Source of the DNA: an uncultured Actinomycetes bacterium
Lineage (GTDB): Bacteria; Actinomycetota; Acidimicrobiia; Acidimicrobiales; RAAP-2
Assembly: GCA_903825765.1 (NCBI GenBank)
Contig: CAIKBU010000081.1
Span: 1-64,000, forward strand
Direction: 5' to 3'
Length of the DNA: 64,000 bases
The notes under the pieces: generated by a model
The model's database searches: none
The model's input: the letters and a program-made list of their open reading frames with translations, nothing else
Told to the model about the DNA's origin: nothing
Position numbers and translations under genes: made by a program
In this document: one piece after another, positions 1-6,684 of the stretch
Position numbering within the stretch: the stretch's first letter is position 1
Layout: each line of letters opens with the position of its first letter

Positions 1-1507
1 CACTCGATGAACTTTCAGCGGAGTGGCCACCCTCGCCACTTCTCGATGCGCCAGCGCCGCCCATGGCACCGGCGGCCGCACCAACTGCCGCCACCGTACC
101 AACGGCCGTCGCCAGGATTTCCTTGCGGTGCTGGCTCGGCACGTACTGGACATACTGTCCAAGTGGCCCCGAGGGAACAGCACCAATATGACCGAGCACC
201 GAACCAGCCGCCACGGTGAAATCCTCAAAACCAGCCACGCTCGTCTGTGTTCCGCTGACGAGACCGACGCTGACGCGGTGTGCCCCGACGGCCAGCGTCG
301 AGGGAAGTGTCAGGGTCAGGGTTGTTGAACCCGTCGCTGAGGTTTCGGCGGCAGTGGCGTTCAGCACATCGCCGTCAACCCAGGCGGAAAGTTGCAGTTG
401 TGCGGGGTACTGACCAACCGTAATCGTGACCTGGCAGTTGGCGATGGGGGTGTTCGGCGGCCCACAGAACCTCGTCACTGTTGACTGTCCGTGCAAGGAG
501 GCGAACGATCCGAACGACATCGTGGTGGGGGCCGACCGTGCCGCCAAAAACGCACCGTTCTTGGCGTTGGTGGCGACGACAGAACAGTGAGCGACGGCCG
601 CCCCACCGGTATAGGTCAATTGGTCGCCCCGTACGACACACTGCGGCGACTTTGTCACATACGACGTGACGTGGGCGCCAGAGCCGCCAGTGGTCTGCAG
701 CGTCATAGCCACCCCCGCAATACCGGTGCGTGCGCTCAAATGAAGCGGCGCCTGTGCCTTGAGGTGCGGGGGCGCAATCGTCAAGAGCGCGGTGGAGGTG
801 TCGTTAAACGTGACGTTCGGGTCACTGCCACCCCAGCAGTAAATCGTAAGGGGCGATGCCGTGGTGGTCACGGTGGTCGTGTAGTTCGACGAACAGGAGG
901 GAGAGGTCTCGACCGTCACCGGAATCTGTGGGCCCGTGGCCGATCCCGCGTGAAAACTGAAGGTGTAGGCCGGGGCCGCCGTCTTGGCAACGACCCTAAG
1001 GGCGTCGGGCACGACGAAGAGTGTTGCTTTATTGATGGTCAGAGAAGCGGTCGAAGAAACGTCGAGTGTGGTCGCCGTGTCGCTGCCCGCGCTACACGTA
1101 ATGGCACCGGCGTAGGATCCGACATTCCACGTGCCGTCGTAGCCCGAGGTGCACGTTGGCGGGGCCGTCAGCGTTGGCGTCACCACTGGTCCCGCCGGGC
1201 TCCCTTCGTGGTAGGTAAAGGTGTAGTTCGGCAGTGCGTCTGAGTAGGTAATGACCTGATTATCCGGCACGACGAACAACGTGCCTCCTCCATCGTGGGG
1301 GTACATCGACAACTCCCCCACCGTGGTGGGGATGTTCAACATATGCCCAGCGAACGTTACGGCTCCCGCCGAAATCGAGAAGAAGCTCGCCCCCAGTAGG
1401 ACGGTTGCGAGTGCCAAGGGAGCCAGCAGTGCCCCCACGAGCGCCAGTCGCACCCGTTGAACGAGTCGAACGTGCCCCGAGCGAGGGGGCCAGTCGCTGC
1501 GCTTCAT
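1..1507 (-). CDS. Secreted/surface protein with MBG-like and Ig-like repeats, 3' end truncated by the left window edge
   Basis: Manual minus-strand translation from ATG at 1507 is open to position 1: MKRSDWPPRSGHVRLVQRVRLALVGALLAPLALATVLLGASFF (signal/TM) ... TLFVVPDNQVITYSDALPNYTFTYHEGSPAGP ... ending in a Gly/Ala/Ser-rich stretch (VGAAAGAMGGAGASRSGEGG). Not in the supplied ORF track because it has no stop in the window. Confidence 0.85.
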   Translation of the reverse strand, partial: MKRSDWPPRSGHVRLVQRVRLALVGALLAPLALATVLLGASFFSISAGAVTFAGHMLNIPTTVGELSMYPHDGGGTLFVVPDNQVITYSDALPNYTFTYHEGSPAGPVVTPTLTAPPTCTSGYDGTWNVGSYAGAITCSAGSDTATTLDVSSTASLTINKATLFVVPDALRVVAKTAAPAYTFSFHAGSATGPQIPVTVETSPSCSSNYTTTVTTTASPLTIYCWGGSDPNVTFNDTSTALLTIAPPHLKAQAPLHLSARTGIAGVAMTLQTTGGSGAHVTSYVTKSPQCVVRGDQLTYTGGAAVAHCSVVATNAKNGAFLAARSAPTTMSFGSFASLHGQSTVTRFCGPPNTPIANCQVTITVGQYPAQLQLSAWVDGDVLNATAAETSATGSTTLTLTLPSTLAVGAHRVSVGLVSGTQTSVAGFEDFTVAAGSVLGHIGAVPSGPLGQYVQYVPSQHRKEILATAVGTVAAVGAAAGAMGGAGASRSGEGGHSAESSSS

Positions 1508-1532
1508 TCGTCGTTTCCCTCCAGCGTTCATT

Positions 1533-4500
1533 TCAGTTGCTCACGTAGACCGCGTTGAGACCAAACGCCCACTTCAACTGAGCCGGTTGCGTGGTGACGC
1601 TGAGCGTCACGCTGGACAAGCCGAGGGACTGGAGCGCTGATCGTAGATAGGACGCAGTGGCCTGGGCGCGTTGGGTCGCCAGTGATGCGTTACTCGCATT
1701 GACGTACCCCGCCACGAAGACACTTGTCACGTGGGCGCCCTTGAGCGACGTGGCGTATCGCGTCAGTGACGCTTGATCGGCCGTCGTCAGGGTGCTTGAG
1801 CCGGCGCCGAACAAAACGTAGAGCGATTGGCCGTGCGGTGACGCAATCGTGACGGTCACTGGAAGCGAGTTAGCGCTGGCGTAGATGCCATTCGCCGCGT
1901 TGACCGCGGTGACGGTACAGATGCCCGTTCGCGTCGCACTCAGCAGCCCCGCCCTCACCGAGCACCCATCACCCGTCACTTGGTAGTGGTAGGACTTTAC
2001 CCCGCTACCACCGGTGGCGGTCAAGGTGAGTGGGGCGCCAATGACGGCCACCGTTGGCGAGCTAATGGCCACTCGCGTCTGCCTCGAAGGCGTAAAGGCG
2101 ACTGACACCGCAGCTGAGGAGACGCTGGCGTAAATACCGTTACCCGGATTGTTGGCCGTCACCGTGCAGGTTGTTCCCGATGACACCGTCAGCGAACGCC
2201 CACTGAGGAAGCATGAGGTGCCACTGACGTGGAACTGGGGCGCAACCACGCCCGATCCCCCAGCCGTCGTGAGGGTCACCGTCTGGCCGGCTACCGCGGT
2301 GGTCGCCGAGGTGATACTGAGGGTGGCCTGGAGGGCCCACGCGAAGTGAATTGTCACGGGTGGCGACGATGTCGCCACGTAATAGTCGGTCTGTGCATTG
2401 TGCGCACTGACCTGACAGTCAGTCGCCCCACTCGCCATCAGCGACGAACCCTGCAAGGTGCAGCCCAATCCCGCCACGGTGTAGGTCGTGGGTAACGACC
2501 CCGCGCCACCAGTGGCGGTGAGGACAAGTGCCGTACCCGCTACCCCACTGGTCGCGGCGGTGATCTGCAAAGGCGTTGGGGCAATGCGCGCAATCGTGAG
2601 ATTCGAAGTAGCACTCTCGTTAAAGGCGTAGTTCAGATCAGTGCCGTAGTTGCATCGAACGGTCAATGGCGACAGCGCCGCGGAGGTGGTCGCGCTGTAA
2701 CCACTCGCGCACACCGGCGTGACCTGAATACTCGGCGTTACCACTGGGCCGGTGGCGCTCCCCGTGTGATAGGCGAATGGGTACGACGGCACTGGACTAA
2801 GCGCGTTGACGGCGACAGCACTGGGCACGACAAAGAGGGTCACCTTACTCAGCGTGAGGTCTTGCGTCGTCAGTACTCCAACGAAGTTGCCATCGCTGGT
2901 CGCCGACACGGTCAGCGAACACTGTCCGGTACCGGCGGTCAACGTTACCTTCATGCCGTTCACCGCACACGCCGGATTCGACGACGTAACGGTCACCTTA
3001 CCGAGATCACCCTTGGTGAGGGAGTACGTAACGGTGTACACGCTGCCGTACGCCGTGCTCGATGGGGTTGAGGTGAAGCGAATGGTTGGGGTGGCCTGAT
3101 CAATGGTGAGGCGTGCACTCGTTGTCGTGTCGAAGACGTAATTCGGGTCGCGTCCACCCTGACAGTTAATCGTCAACGGCGAAAGTGCGACGCTCGATAG
3201 TGGACCGTAGGGCGACGCACACGTGGGCGACGACGATGGCGCCACGGTGACGACCGGACCATCGGTTGCGCCGAGGTGAAAACTGTAGGTGTACGGCGGG
3301 ACTGCGTCCCCGTAGATCATGCTCTGGTCATCGGGAACGACGAACAGAGTGTCGGGGCTGACAGTGATTGACGCCGTACTCGAGACGTTGAAGACGTAGT
3401 TCGGATCTTGCCCCGCCTGGCATTGAATAGTAAGTGGCGAGTCGGGCACCGTGGTGGTCGCCGAGTAGGGCGAGGTGCACGTTGGGCTCTGCTCCAACGC
3501 CACTGAGGCTGGTGATCCCGTCGGACTATCGGTAAAGAGCGCGTAGGTGTAGTCAGGAACGGCATCGCCATAGTTGACCTGTTGGGCGTCGGGGACGACG
3601 TAGAGCAAGATTGGTCGAATCGTGAGGGACGCCGTACTCGACGTGTCGAACACGTAGTTGGGGTCATAGCCCGTCGCGCAGGTGATCGCGTGTGCGTAGG
3701 TCCCGGCATTCCAGGTGCCGTCGTAGTCGGACGTGCAGTACGGCTCTGACGCTACCGACACCTCGAGGAGGGGGCCAGTAGGTGAGTTGAGGTGATAGGC
3801 AAACGTGAAATCCGGCGCGGCGTCGGCGTAGTTAATGCTCTGCGCAGTAGGCACCACGTACAGCGTCACCTGGGCAATAGTGATCGTGGGCACCAGTGAC
3901 ACGCCGTAATCTGAGCCGTAGTTGAACTGACTCGTCGGGTCTTGGTTCCCGCCGCCCTGGTATTGGGCCGTGATGACGTCGCCGGCAAATTCGATGTTCG
4001 GGTCGGTACACCCTGCCCCGTACCGCTCACCGCCACCCACCGCGGCGCCCAGGTCCGTCCAGGCGGATGACGAGCACGCCAGTGCCCCGTTGTCGCTAAT
4101 GGTCAACGTTCCCGTCGGAGGAGTCGATCCCGCTGGGATCGTGAGTGTCACTTGGTACGCATTCGAAAAGCCACCGAGCGGCGATCCGGTCAGCGTGAAG
4201 TTCAGTGCCGACAGGTTGCAGGTCACCACACCTTGACAGCGGTTCGTGAAGTTCACGACGTTCCCGACCGACCAGCGCGAAATATTTTGAGCGAAACTGG
4301 TCGCTCCCTGGAACAGATAACTCATGTCGGTGACGTTGGCGGTACGCCACGTCGCAAGGGGCTGGTTAAAGGCCGTCGCCGAGGCGAAGGTGCCACTCAT
4401 ATCAGTAACGCTCGAGGTGTCCCATTTGCCCAGGGGTTGGTTGAATGCGGTCGCACCCTGGAAGGTGGCGTTCAGGTTCGCCACCCTGCTCACGTTCCAT

Positions 4501-6197
4501 GTCTCGAGGGGCGCATTGAAGGCGGTGGCGTAACTAAAGGTGCCGTTGAGCGTCACGACGTTCGAGGTGTCCCACGCCAGTGCCTGATTGAAGGAGGGGT
4601 CGTAGGCGAAGGTGAAACTGAGATCAGTGACGTTCGTGGTCTTCCAAGCGTTGAGAGGTTGGTTGAAATCGCTCGCCCCAGCAAACATGTACGCCATAGT
4701 GGTGACGTTGTGCACGTCGGAAAAGAGTGGGCTGTTGAAACTCGTCGCGCCGGCGAACATGCCGCTCATATCGGTGACACTCTGAGTTGCGAGCCCCGTG
4801 AGGGAGCGGTTGAAGGCGGTGTCTCCTTGAAACATGCCGCTCATGTTCGTGACGTTCGGCGTGGTGGTGAACACCGCACTATCAAACGAGGTGGCCCCGA
4901 GGAACATGGCCGCCATCGACGTGCACGACGACAGGTCCCAGGCCGTCAAGGGCTGGTTGAAACTACTCGCGAGCTCGAACATTCCGTCCGCCGTCGTGAG
5001 TGCCTGGGTACGCCAACCGGCGAGTGGCTCATTGAAGGCGGTGGCATCAAGGAACATGTAACTGGCATCGGTGACGAGACCCATCGACCAATTCTCCAAG
5101 GGCTGATTGAACGACGAGGCGTTGGCGAACATGCCGTTCATCGTCGTCACCGAGGACGTGTCCCAACTCCCCAGTGGCTGATTGAACGACGTCGCACCCG
5201 AGAAGGTAAAGATCATTTCCTGCACGTTGGTCGTCGACCAATTGGCGAGTGGTTTATTGAATGCCGTGTCTTGCTGGAAGACGTAGTCCATTTGGGTGAC
5301 GTTGCTCGTATTCCAGGCGTTCAGCGGTTGGTCAAAGGAGCTCGCAAACTGAAACAGACCATTGAGGTTGGTGACATTGGCGACGTTCCAGTTACCGATG
5401 GGCTGGTTGAACGCCGACGCGTTTTGAAACATAAAGCTGAGGTCGGTTACCGCGCCGGTCTGCCAATTCGATAGTGGTTGGTTGAAGACCGGGTCGGAGG
5501 CGAACATAAAGCTCATCGAGGTGACCAACGCCGTCTGGGAAAACAGTGGACTATTAAACGCACTCGCCCCTTGAAACATGTAGCTCATGTCGGTGACGTT
5601 GTACGTGGCCCACGGTAACGGTTGATTAAACGATGTGGCACCCTCAAACATCCCCGCCATAGTCGTGACGGCGCTGGTGTCCCAGGTGGCGAGGGTGCCG
5701 TTGAATGACGTTGCACCGTCGAACATATAGCTGAGGTTCGATACGGTGCCGGGCAAGGTCGAGGGTACGTGTTGCAAGGTAATTGCCCCGTTGAAGGCGT
5801 AGGCGAAGGACTGCCACGGCCCCGACCAGCTGGTGACCGAGGTCAACGCCACCAATGGCGTCGCCGAGGCAGAACCGAAGCCCACCACCTGACTCGAAGC
5901 GGTAATCGTTACCGTGTAGGTACCGAGCGCCGCGTAGTGGTGCGACAACGACGAGTTGACCGACCCGTCGCCCCAGTTGATCTGCGAGCCACCGTCGGTC
6001 ACGGGCAAATTGTTCGCGTCGACCAATGGCAGTGACACGTCGGTCGGGTTCGTCAACACGAGCGTCATCGCAGGTCGAGTGGTCACCGCGGACGCGGTGC
6101 CACTCGCCACCATGGACCACGTCACGAAGAAGAAAACACCGACGACGAGACTGGCGGCGACGAGACAAACTTTCGTCAAGAGAATGCGCTTCGCCAT
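1533..6197 (-). CDS. Large mosaic surface protein: signal peptide/TM, PKD-like domain, about 20 BspA-type (DUF285) LRR repeats, MBG and Ig-like repeats, OmpA-like C-terminus
   Basis: ORF 1533-6233. The preferred start is the internal ATG at 6197 (MAKRILLTKVCLVAASLVVGVFFF), preceded by GAGGTAGTC. PKD-like INWGDGSVNSSLSHHYAALGTYTVTI; repeats such as FNQPLSNWQTGAVTDLSFMFQNASA; MBG-type VVPDAQQVNYGDAVPDYTYAL; C-term LYVLFGAGSSTLTTADQASLTRYA...ASLATQRAQATASYLRSAL. Confidence 0.93.
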   Translation of the reverse strand: MAKRILLTKVCLVAASLVVGVFFFVTWSMVASGTASAVTTRPAMTLVLTNPTDVSLPLVDANNLPVTDGGSQINWGDGSVNSSLSHHYAALGTYTVTITASSQVVGFGSASATPLVALTSVTSWSGPWQSFAYAFNGAITLQHVPSTLPGTVSNLSYMFDGATSFNGTLATWDTSAVTTMAGMFEGATSFNQPLPWATYNVTDMSYMFQGASAFNSPLFSQTALVTSMSFMFASDPVFNQPLSNWQTGAVTDLSFMFQNASAFNQPIGNWNVANVTNLNGLFQFASSFDQPLNAWNTSNVTQMDYVFQQDTAFNKPLANWSTTNVQEMIFTFSGATSFNQPLGSWDTSSVTTMNGMFANASSFNQPLENWSMGLVTDASYMFLDATAFNEPLAGWRTQALTTADGMFELASSFNQPLTAWDLSSCTSMAAMFLGATSFDSAVFTTTPNVTNMSGMFQGDTAFNRSLTGLATQSVTDMSGMFAGATSFNSPLFSDVHNVTTMAYMFAGASDFNQPLNAWKTTNVTDLSFTFAYDPSFNQALAWDTSNVVTLNGTFSYATAFNAPLETWNVSRVANLNATFQGATAFNQPLGKWDTSSVTDMSGTFASATAFNQPLATWRTANVTDMSYLFQGATSFAQNISRWSVGNVVNFTNRCQGVVTCNLSALNFTLTGSPLGGFSNAYQVTLTIPAGSTPPTGTLTISDNGALACSSSAWTDLGAAVGGGERYGAGCTDPNIEFAGDVITAQYQGGGNQDPTSQFNYGSDYGVSLVPTITIAQVTLYVVPTAQSINYADAAPDFTFAYHLNSPTGPLLEVSVASEPYCTSDYDGTWNAGTYAHAITCATGYDPNYVFDTSSTASLTIRPILLYVVPDAQQVNYGDAVPDYTYALFTDSPTGSPASVALEQSPTCTSPYSATTTVPDSPLTIQCQAGQDPNYVFNVSSTASITVSPDTLFVVPDDQSMIYGDAVPPYTYSFHLGATDGPVVTVAPSSSPTCASPYGPLSSVALSPLTINCQGGRDPNYVFDTTTSARLTIDQATPTIRFTSTPSSTAYGSVYTVTYSLTKGDLGKVTVTSSNPACAVNGMKVTLTAGTGQCSLTVSATSDGNFVGVLTTQDLTLSKVTLFVVPSAVAVNALSPVPSYPFAYHTGSATGPVVTPSIQVTPVCASGYSATTSAALSPLTVRCNYGTDLNYAFNESATSNLTIARIAPTPLQITAATSGVAGTALVLTATGGAGSLPTTYTVAGLGCTLQGSSLMASGATDCQVSAHNAQTDYYVATSSPPVTIHFAWALQATLSITSATTAVAGQTVTLTTAGGSGVVAPQFHVSGTSCFLSGRSLTVSSGTTCTVTANNPGNGIYASVSSAAVSVAFTPSRQTRVAISSPTVAVIGAPLTLTATGGSGVKSYHYQVTGDGCSVRAGLLSATRTGICTVTAVNAANGIYASANSLPVTVTIASPHGQSLYVLFGAGSSTLTTADQASLTRYATSLKGAHVTSVFVAGYVNASNASLATQRAQATASYLRSALQSLGLSSVTLSVTTQPAQLKWAFGLNAVYVSN

Positions 6198-6402
6198 GAC
6201 TACCTCACCACACACCGTCGTCTCCACTTTCAATCACGTTTAGACCCAGTGGTGTTGGCCTTTCTCTATTTAACCACGCCAACCTGTCGTGCTGAGTCGG
6301 GCGCGCCGTACCTCGGCGTGTCACACGCGACCAGCGATGCATTGGCCCTCTCACGCGGGTGCGTCAGAGTGGTGGCGTTTCCAGACGCGGTACAGTAGCG
6401 CA

Positions 6403-6684
6403 GTGACTGATGCCAACGAACTCCCCGAAGAAATCGCCTACCTGCAATCCACGCCAGTGGAGCAAGTCCTCGGCAACCACATCTTTGTCCTTTTGCAGCT
6501 CGTCGCGGTTCACGTCGCGGCCACCCCACCGAATCTCGAAAGCGCGCAGCTGGTCATCGACATGCTGGTCGCGATGATCGAGACGGGCGGCGACCGCTTG
6601 GGCGAACACGTCACGTTGTATCGGGGCGCCCTCGCCGAGACCCAGCAAGCATTCGCGCGGGCCGTCGCCCAAAAAGGAAGCTAA
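6403..6684 (+). CDS. Small conserved-type protein, possibly DUF1844-like
   Basis: GTG start at 6403 in the frame of ORF 6289-6684: VTDANELPEEIAYLQSTPVEQVLGNHIFVLLQLVAVHVAATPPNLESAQLVIDMLVAMIETGGDRLGEHVTLYRGALAETQQAFARAVAQ. The family name is tentative. Confidence 0.65.
   Translation: MTDANELPEEIAYLQSTPVEQVLGNHIFVLLQLVAVHVAATPPNLESAQLVIDMLVAMIETGGDRLGEHVTLYRGALAETQQAFARAVAQKGS

Follow-up and report, generated by a model that had tools for sequence, protein, structure and literature searches.

How a giant surface protein is held at the cell is poorly known for monoderm actinobacteria without sortase motifs. The question is raised by the protein P0001 (1,554 aa), a mosaic with an OmpA-like C-terminus, encoded in the window (the whole stretch of 64,000 nucleotides that was analysed), which is part of contig G000:C81 from an assembly of 1.75 Mb. 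The actinobacterial origin given in the original prediction was confirmed, the genus including Acidimicrobiaceae bacterium bog_769 (G076, PLRK01000072.1), and some members of this genus, if not all, are likely to live in peat.

Gene and module order of P0001

P0001 is encoded by an intact ORF on the minus strand (CDS 1536–6197; ATG at 6197, stop at 1533–1535), with GGTGAGG immediately 5′ of the ATG. Codon usage of the CDS was like that of the rest of the window genes (z = 0.0), and foreign codon usage was rejected. All modules named below are accordingly read on the minus strand. Sequence and hydropathy scan gave a signal peptide at 6084–6197 (residues 1–38, hydrophobic core 5–23) in which no lipobox was seen; beyond it, the hydropathy scan gave no convincing further transmembrane helix. 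It is followed by a PKD-like N-terminal domain with a WGDG motif (5808–6068, residues 44–130), assigned by leader alignment and by scores below the cut-offs (PF00801/PF18911; PKD_4 16.6 bits, PKD 15.9 bits); at the homologous position of G076, PKD reached 37.9 bits vs. a cut-off of 23.5. The leader alignment also placed a solenoid N-cap, FAYAFNGAITLQHVPSTLPGTVSNLSY, at 5727–5807 (residues 131–157), which is kept in 6/6 aligned PKD + DUF285 leaders.

The N-cap is succeeded by 20 tandem DUF285 repeats of 24–25 aa each (4242–5726, residues 158–652), laid out by Pfam, NCBIfam and by hand, and by a probable beta-type segment without any Pfam match, assigned from its sequence (3873–4205, residues 665–775). 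MBG-like repeats 1–3 (3108–3872, residues 776–1030), an Ig-like repeat without Pfam match above cut-off (2847–3107, residues 1031–1117), MBG-like repeat 4 (2586–2846, residues 1118–1204) and three Ig-like repeats (1833–2585, residues 1205–1455) lead to the OmpA-like C-terminal domain with the motif GYVNASNASLATQRA (1536–1832, residues 1456–1554), the Ig-like repeats being placed by sequence layout and the C-terminal domain by Pfam, profile, AlphaFold and Foldseek. The four MBG-like repeats align to each other, with LxVVP and NYxF cores in common, and MBG_2 (PF18676) gave 16.2 bits over two stretches, not reaching its cut-off of 25. The same genome encodes several further large proteins with the Ig-like repeat of residues 1205–1455, at 32–44% identity. 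No sequence relatives of the whole of P0001 were found in the PDB. A modular secreted surface protein had been predicted, and the signal peptide and the module order seen in the 1,554-aa frame agree with this, the coordinates proposed at that time being correct within a few tens of bases.

DUF285 repeats and their relatives

Among the families expected from the Pfam scan, DUF285 passed its cut-off of 25 by a wide distance (PF03382; 645 bits, E 1e-197, 8 stretches), and OmpA, MBG and PKD all stayed under theirs. In NCBIfam, the PARCEL repeat TIGR02167 scored 114 bits vs. a cut-off of 30, and NF045896 scored 301 bits, under its own cut-off of 500. The earlier label "BspA" had to be dropped: LRR_5 (PF13306) gave no match at E up to 1, and the repeats are DUF285.

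The closest known system is that of the DUF285/PARCEL surface proteins (PF03382, TIGR02167; Roske et al. 2010, PMC2996958; mycoplasma LppQ), whose repeats are expressed in mycoplasma surface lipoproteins (PMC2996958). P0001 has in common with them tandem repeats of the 25-residue type (20 units of 24–25 residues), a targeting sequence and a sporadic occurrence across distant taxa, DUF285 being found in 6/99 genomes of the genus (4 of the 6 genes cut by contig ends) and in 14/397 genomes of the phylum sample, a punctate distribution as in PARCEL. Unlike the PARCEL proteins, P0001 is not a lipoprotein, its repeats are fused to PKD-like, MBG, Ig-like and OmpA-like modules, and its DNA is without dyad symmetry; PKD, OmpA and actinobacteria are not mentioned in the PARCEL paper (PMC2996958). 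Dyad symmetry in the repeat-coding DNA was not above that of 200 synonymous shuffles, the observed counts of inverted 6-, 8- and 10-mers within 150 bases being reached in 72, 126 and 182 of them, respectively, and the DNA copies of the repeat are 60–75% identical to the reference copy. Diverged repeat DNA, lack of dyad symmetry and native codon usage together give no sign of recent transfer.

The combination of modules is unusual only in part. Of 539 candidate stretches from genome contigs, a leader profile recognized 404 as PKD-like + DUF285 relatives, spanning Bacteroidota, Pseudomonadota, Campylobacterota, Actinomycetota, Patescibacteria, Chloroflexota and archaeal bins. The PKD + DUF285 start is thus ordinary and recurs across many phyla, and DUF285 together with Ig/Fn3 repeats was found in other Actinomycetota. 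Such proteins from Bacteroidota, Pseudomonadota and others (L140, L146, L149) show the same WGDG leader, cap and DUF285 as P0001; the scanned ones usually carry an LSxxNYDxxLxGWA cap after the repeats, which P0001 lacks, and are usually without the OmpA-like end that P0001 has. At least 579 PKD/DUF285 matches were obtained in IMG/VR contigs (L219–L298), the repeats being common in viral-classed contigs. One DUF285 contig (L145) is labelled Bifidobacterium breve (metagenome bin), a label that looks doubtful beside its closest relatives.

For the shape of the repeat region, the profile of the PKD + DUF285 region gave one sequence match to a solved structure, the FNIP leucine-rich repeat protein Crov539 (E 8e-4), and the solenoid model gave weak Foldseek matches, all to LRR solenoids (none at E < 0.001; TM about 0.2). 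On these two grounds we would guess at a leucine-rich-repeat-like solenoid before any other shape, though with low confidence. The FNIP/FGxxFN leucine-rich repeats of Cafeteria roenbergensis virus (Crov539/Crov588, PMC9525666) resemble P0001 in an FNQPI-like core and differ from it by a 22-residue repeat and the lack of a PKD leader.

OmpA-like C-terminal domain

The Pfam OmpA model (PF00691) gave 22.9 bits for the C-terminus, under its cut-off of 27.2, and a domain profile of genus and order, built without P0001, gave 63 bits (E 2e-21). The AlphaFold model of the C-terminus (pLDDT 83, pTM 0.76) has the beta-alpha-beta-alpha-beta arrangement of the OmpA fold and matched solved OmpA-like domains, as had been anticipated (Foldseek to 6jfw: E 1.9e-7, TM 0.73; 61 matches in the PDB with E no higher than 0.001). 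PA0833, FopA1, A. baumannii OmpA, OprF and YfiB ranked highest among these, and Pal was also matched; the predicted structure thus places the C-terminus in the OmpA fold. A PDB sequence search with the C-terminus returned weak matches alone (E 0.17), and the search of genome contigs gave nothing closely related to the C-terminal 155 aa.

The peptidoglycan motif of OmpA-like domains is TD(x)7NxxLSxxRA, with critical Asp, Asn and Arg (PMC5104382). In P0001 this Asp is absent, GYVN standing in its place, and five loop residues fewer lie between the Asp position and the Arg (spacing to the Arg 10 vs. 15). No acidic residue is present anywhere in the motif region GYVNASNASLATQRAQATASYL. Asn and Arg are present, with NASLATQRA fitting NxxLxxxRA; the GYVN and QRA readings of the original prediction, an OmpA-like end with Asp lost and Arg kept, were therefore correct. 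The nine-residue spacing is common to five other proteins of the genus (L094, L089, L102, L109, L110). A comparable residue loss is known from Treponema pallidum Tp0624, an OmpA fold in which the critical Asp is changed to Ala, the Arg is kept and DAP is not bound (PMC5104382); by this precedent, loss of the Asp with the Arg kept can abolish DAP binding. Unlike P0001, Tp0624 reads TAD(x)6E/QxxLSxxRA with a loop of full length, and it belongs to a diderm spirochaete and has other partner domains (PMC5104382). The actinobacterial OmpA-like domain of OmpATb/Rv0899 from Mycobacterium tuberculosis (2kgw, 2lca) has GYTD, with Tyr replacing His, and differs from P0001 by a complete TD(x)7N motif and a single-domain architecture.

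PF00691 was matched in 93/99 genomes of the genus, and OmpA-like domains stand at the extreme C-terminus of many of its large proteins, which together argue that the domain is being retained as a module of the protein end. By profile alignment, the Arg was kept in 40/40 and 30/30 domains of two genus samples (70/70), the Asp in 20/40 and 20/30 (40/70, hence lost in 30/70) and the Asn in 53/70. The 30 best matches from the order kept the triad of Asp, Asn and Arg in 30/30, a sample of best matches that favours the canonical motif, so that part of the contrast between genus and order is due to selection. Loop deletion, genus-wide pattern and the Tp0624 precedent all strengthen the suspicion, voiced beforehand, that the presumed wall anchoring is altered. 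In the genome of P0001 itself, the C-terminal domain was the sole PF00691 match at E 0.01, which implies that the other large secreted proteins of the cell manage without an OmpA-like end. Three further observations were made in the genus: a separate canonical MotB-like OmpA domain (GYTDxRPxxxGPYxxNWALSAARA; L111–L115, L117) is kept in part of it, as many as 12 OmpA-like domains occur in a single small genome (G019, 1.4 Mb), and frames with such a domain at their end reach 4,383 codons (G062:C18).

Among 228 DUF285 frames in the fetched loci, many of them from loci of limited length and 185 closed at the 3′ end, an OmpA-like end was found in the G076 gene only (in several overlapping loci), and there marginally (E 7e-4, profile built without the G076 sequence). 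The fusion of DUF285 with an OmpA-like end therefore looks specific to this genus, as far as these frames indicate. The G076 protein (1,507 aa; L055/L142) resembles P0001 in PKD + DUF285, an Ig-like repeat and a short-loop OmpA-like C-terminus, and differs by three PKD + DUF285 blocks, the lack of MBG repeats and a Gln aligned at the position of the motif Arg. A literature search gave no paper that deals with OmpA-ended or DUF285 proteins of Acidimicrobiia.

Locus, ORF2 and attachment of P0001

A second gene, ORF2 (2–1531, minus strand), has its ATG two bases past the stop of the P0001 gene on the same strand and runs off the contig. The contig ends (window 1–141 and G000:C18) share an exact 141-base stretch, by which ORF2 continues in contig C18 (L344, 1613–2965, minus strand) and infC, rpmI and rplT come to lie beside it, infC next. 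The full ORF2 product is 915 aa long and combines a signal anchor with two MBG-like repeats, one Ig-like repeat and about 8 transmembrane segments; no Pfam family was found for it, and its MBG-like segments are 50% identical to those of P0001. The ORF2 membrane domain occurs in 23/99 genomes of the genus. In 12 relatives the order is ribBA, ribH, a cold-shock-like ORF, a small ORF (window 6289–6684) and then infC, some of them having an inserted two-component pair ahead of the small ORF, and the pair of P0001 gene and ORF2 is missing from this locus in all 12. The P0001 gene is thus accessory, inserted with ORF2 between the riboflavin genes and infC. Within the genus, the ribH–infC interval is variable (L331–L342), being empty or holding a two-component pair or, in the window, the surface-protein pair. 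That ORF2-type membrane proteins are regularly paired with an OmpA-ended protein was rejected: of 20 neighbourhoods of ORF2-type genes in the genus, several of them on short contigs, none contained an OmpA-like domain.

With about an even chance of being right, we take P0001 to be a Sec-secreted surface recognition or adhesion protein with a degenerate OmpA-fold envelope anchor. After secretion via Sec, the PKD-like N-terminal domain would cap the 20-repeat DUF285 solenoid, which would serve as a variable binding surface, and the MBG and Ig-like repeats would form a stalk. Location at the cell surface and ligand binding by the solenoid are suggested by analogy. The C-terminal OmpA-fold domain may contact the envelope and would tether P0001 to it, though not through the standard diaminopimelate contact, because the Asp is missing and the pocket loop is shorter by five residues, with Asn and Arg remaining.

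The main competitor, possible at well below even chances, is that the OmpA-like domain has kept its peptidoglycan binding by means of Asn, Arg and other contacts, P0001 then being an ordinary, non-covalently wall-anchored adhesin. The fold is intact in the model, the genus keeps the Arg in 70/70 and the Asn in 53/70 domains, and about half of the sampled domains retain the Asp; set against this are the loss in P0001 of the Asp along with five loop residues, the lack of any acidic residue in GYVNASNASLATQRAQATASYL, and the failure of Tp0624 to bind DAP after a milder Asp to Ala change (PMC5104382). Unlikely, in our judgement, is a role of the ORF2 membrane protein in holding or assembling P0001, with the OmpA-like end secondary. 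Such a role would suit two genes on one strand, two bases apart, the 50% identity of their MBG-like segments and the combination of about 8 transmembrane segments with an MBG/Ig ectodomain in ORF2; ORF2-type proteins, however, stand alone in another 22 genomes of the genus, with an OmpA-like neighbour in 0/20 (several contigs short).

Release of P0001, or a place in a matrix, would make the OmpA-like end a vestige without binding function. We consider this improbable: the motif is degenerate and the genome's other large secreted proteins end in plain Ig-like repeats with no anchor, but the invariant Arg (70/70 sampled genus domains) and the kept fold argue for retained function. That P0001 is a PARCEL mobile coding element, a passenger without a role of its own, would fit the punctate distribution of DUF285 (6/99 in the genus, 14/397 in the phylum) and the absence of the gene pair from this locus in 12 relatives. 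It is very improbable given dyad symmetry no greater than in synonymous shuffles, old and diverged repeat DNA, native codon usage and a frame intact across 1,554 codons. It is conceivable, though rather doubtful, that the OmpA fold of this genus has become a general C-terminal envelope module of large surface proteins with a changed ligand (a peptide, amidated or otherwise, or a polymer of the wall). Such a module would retain the Arg pocket and could do without the Asp that reads DAP, P0001 being its most shortened form.

The DUF285 part alone is ordinary; the C-terminal end is less so and is a variant on a known kind. With OmpA-like ends in 93/99 genomes, an invariant Arg and an Asp that is often lost, the genus represents a natural variant series in which one could ask what each contact of the OmpA pocket contributes and to what wall chemistry it is suited.
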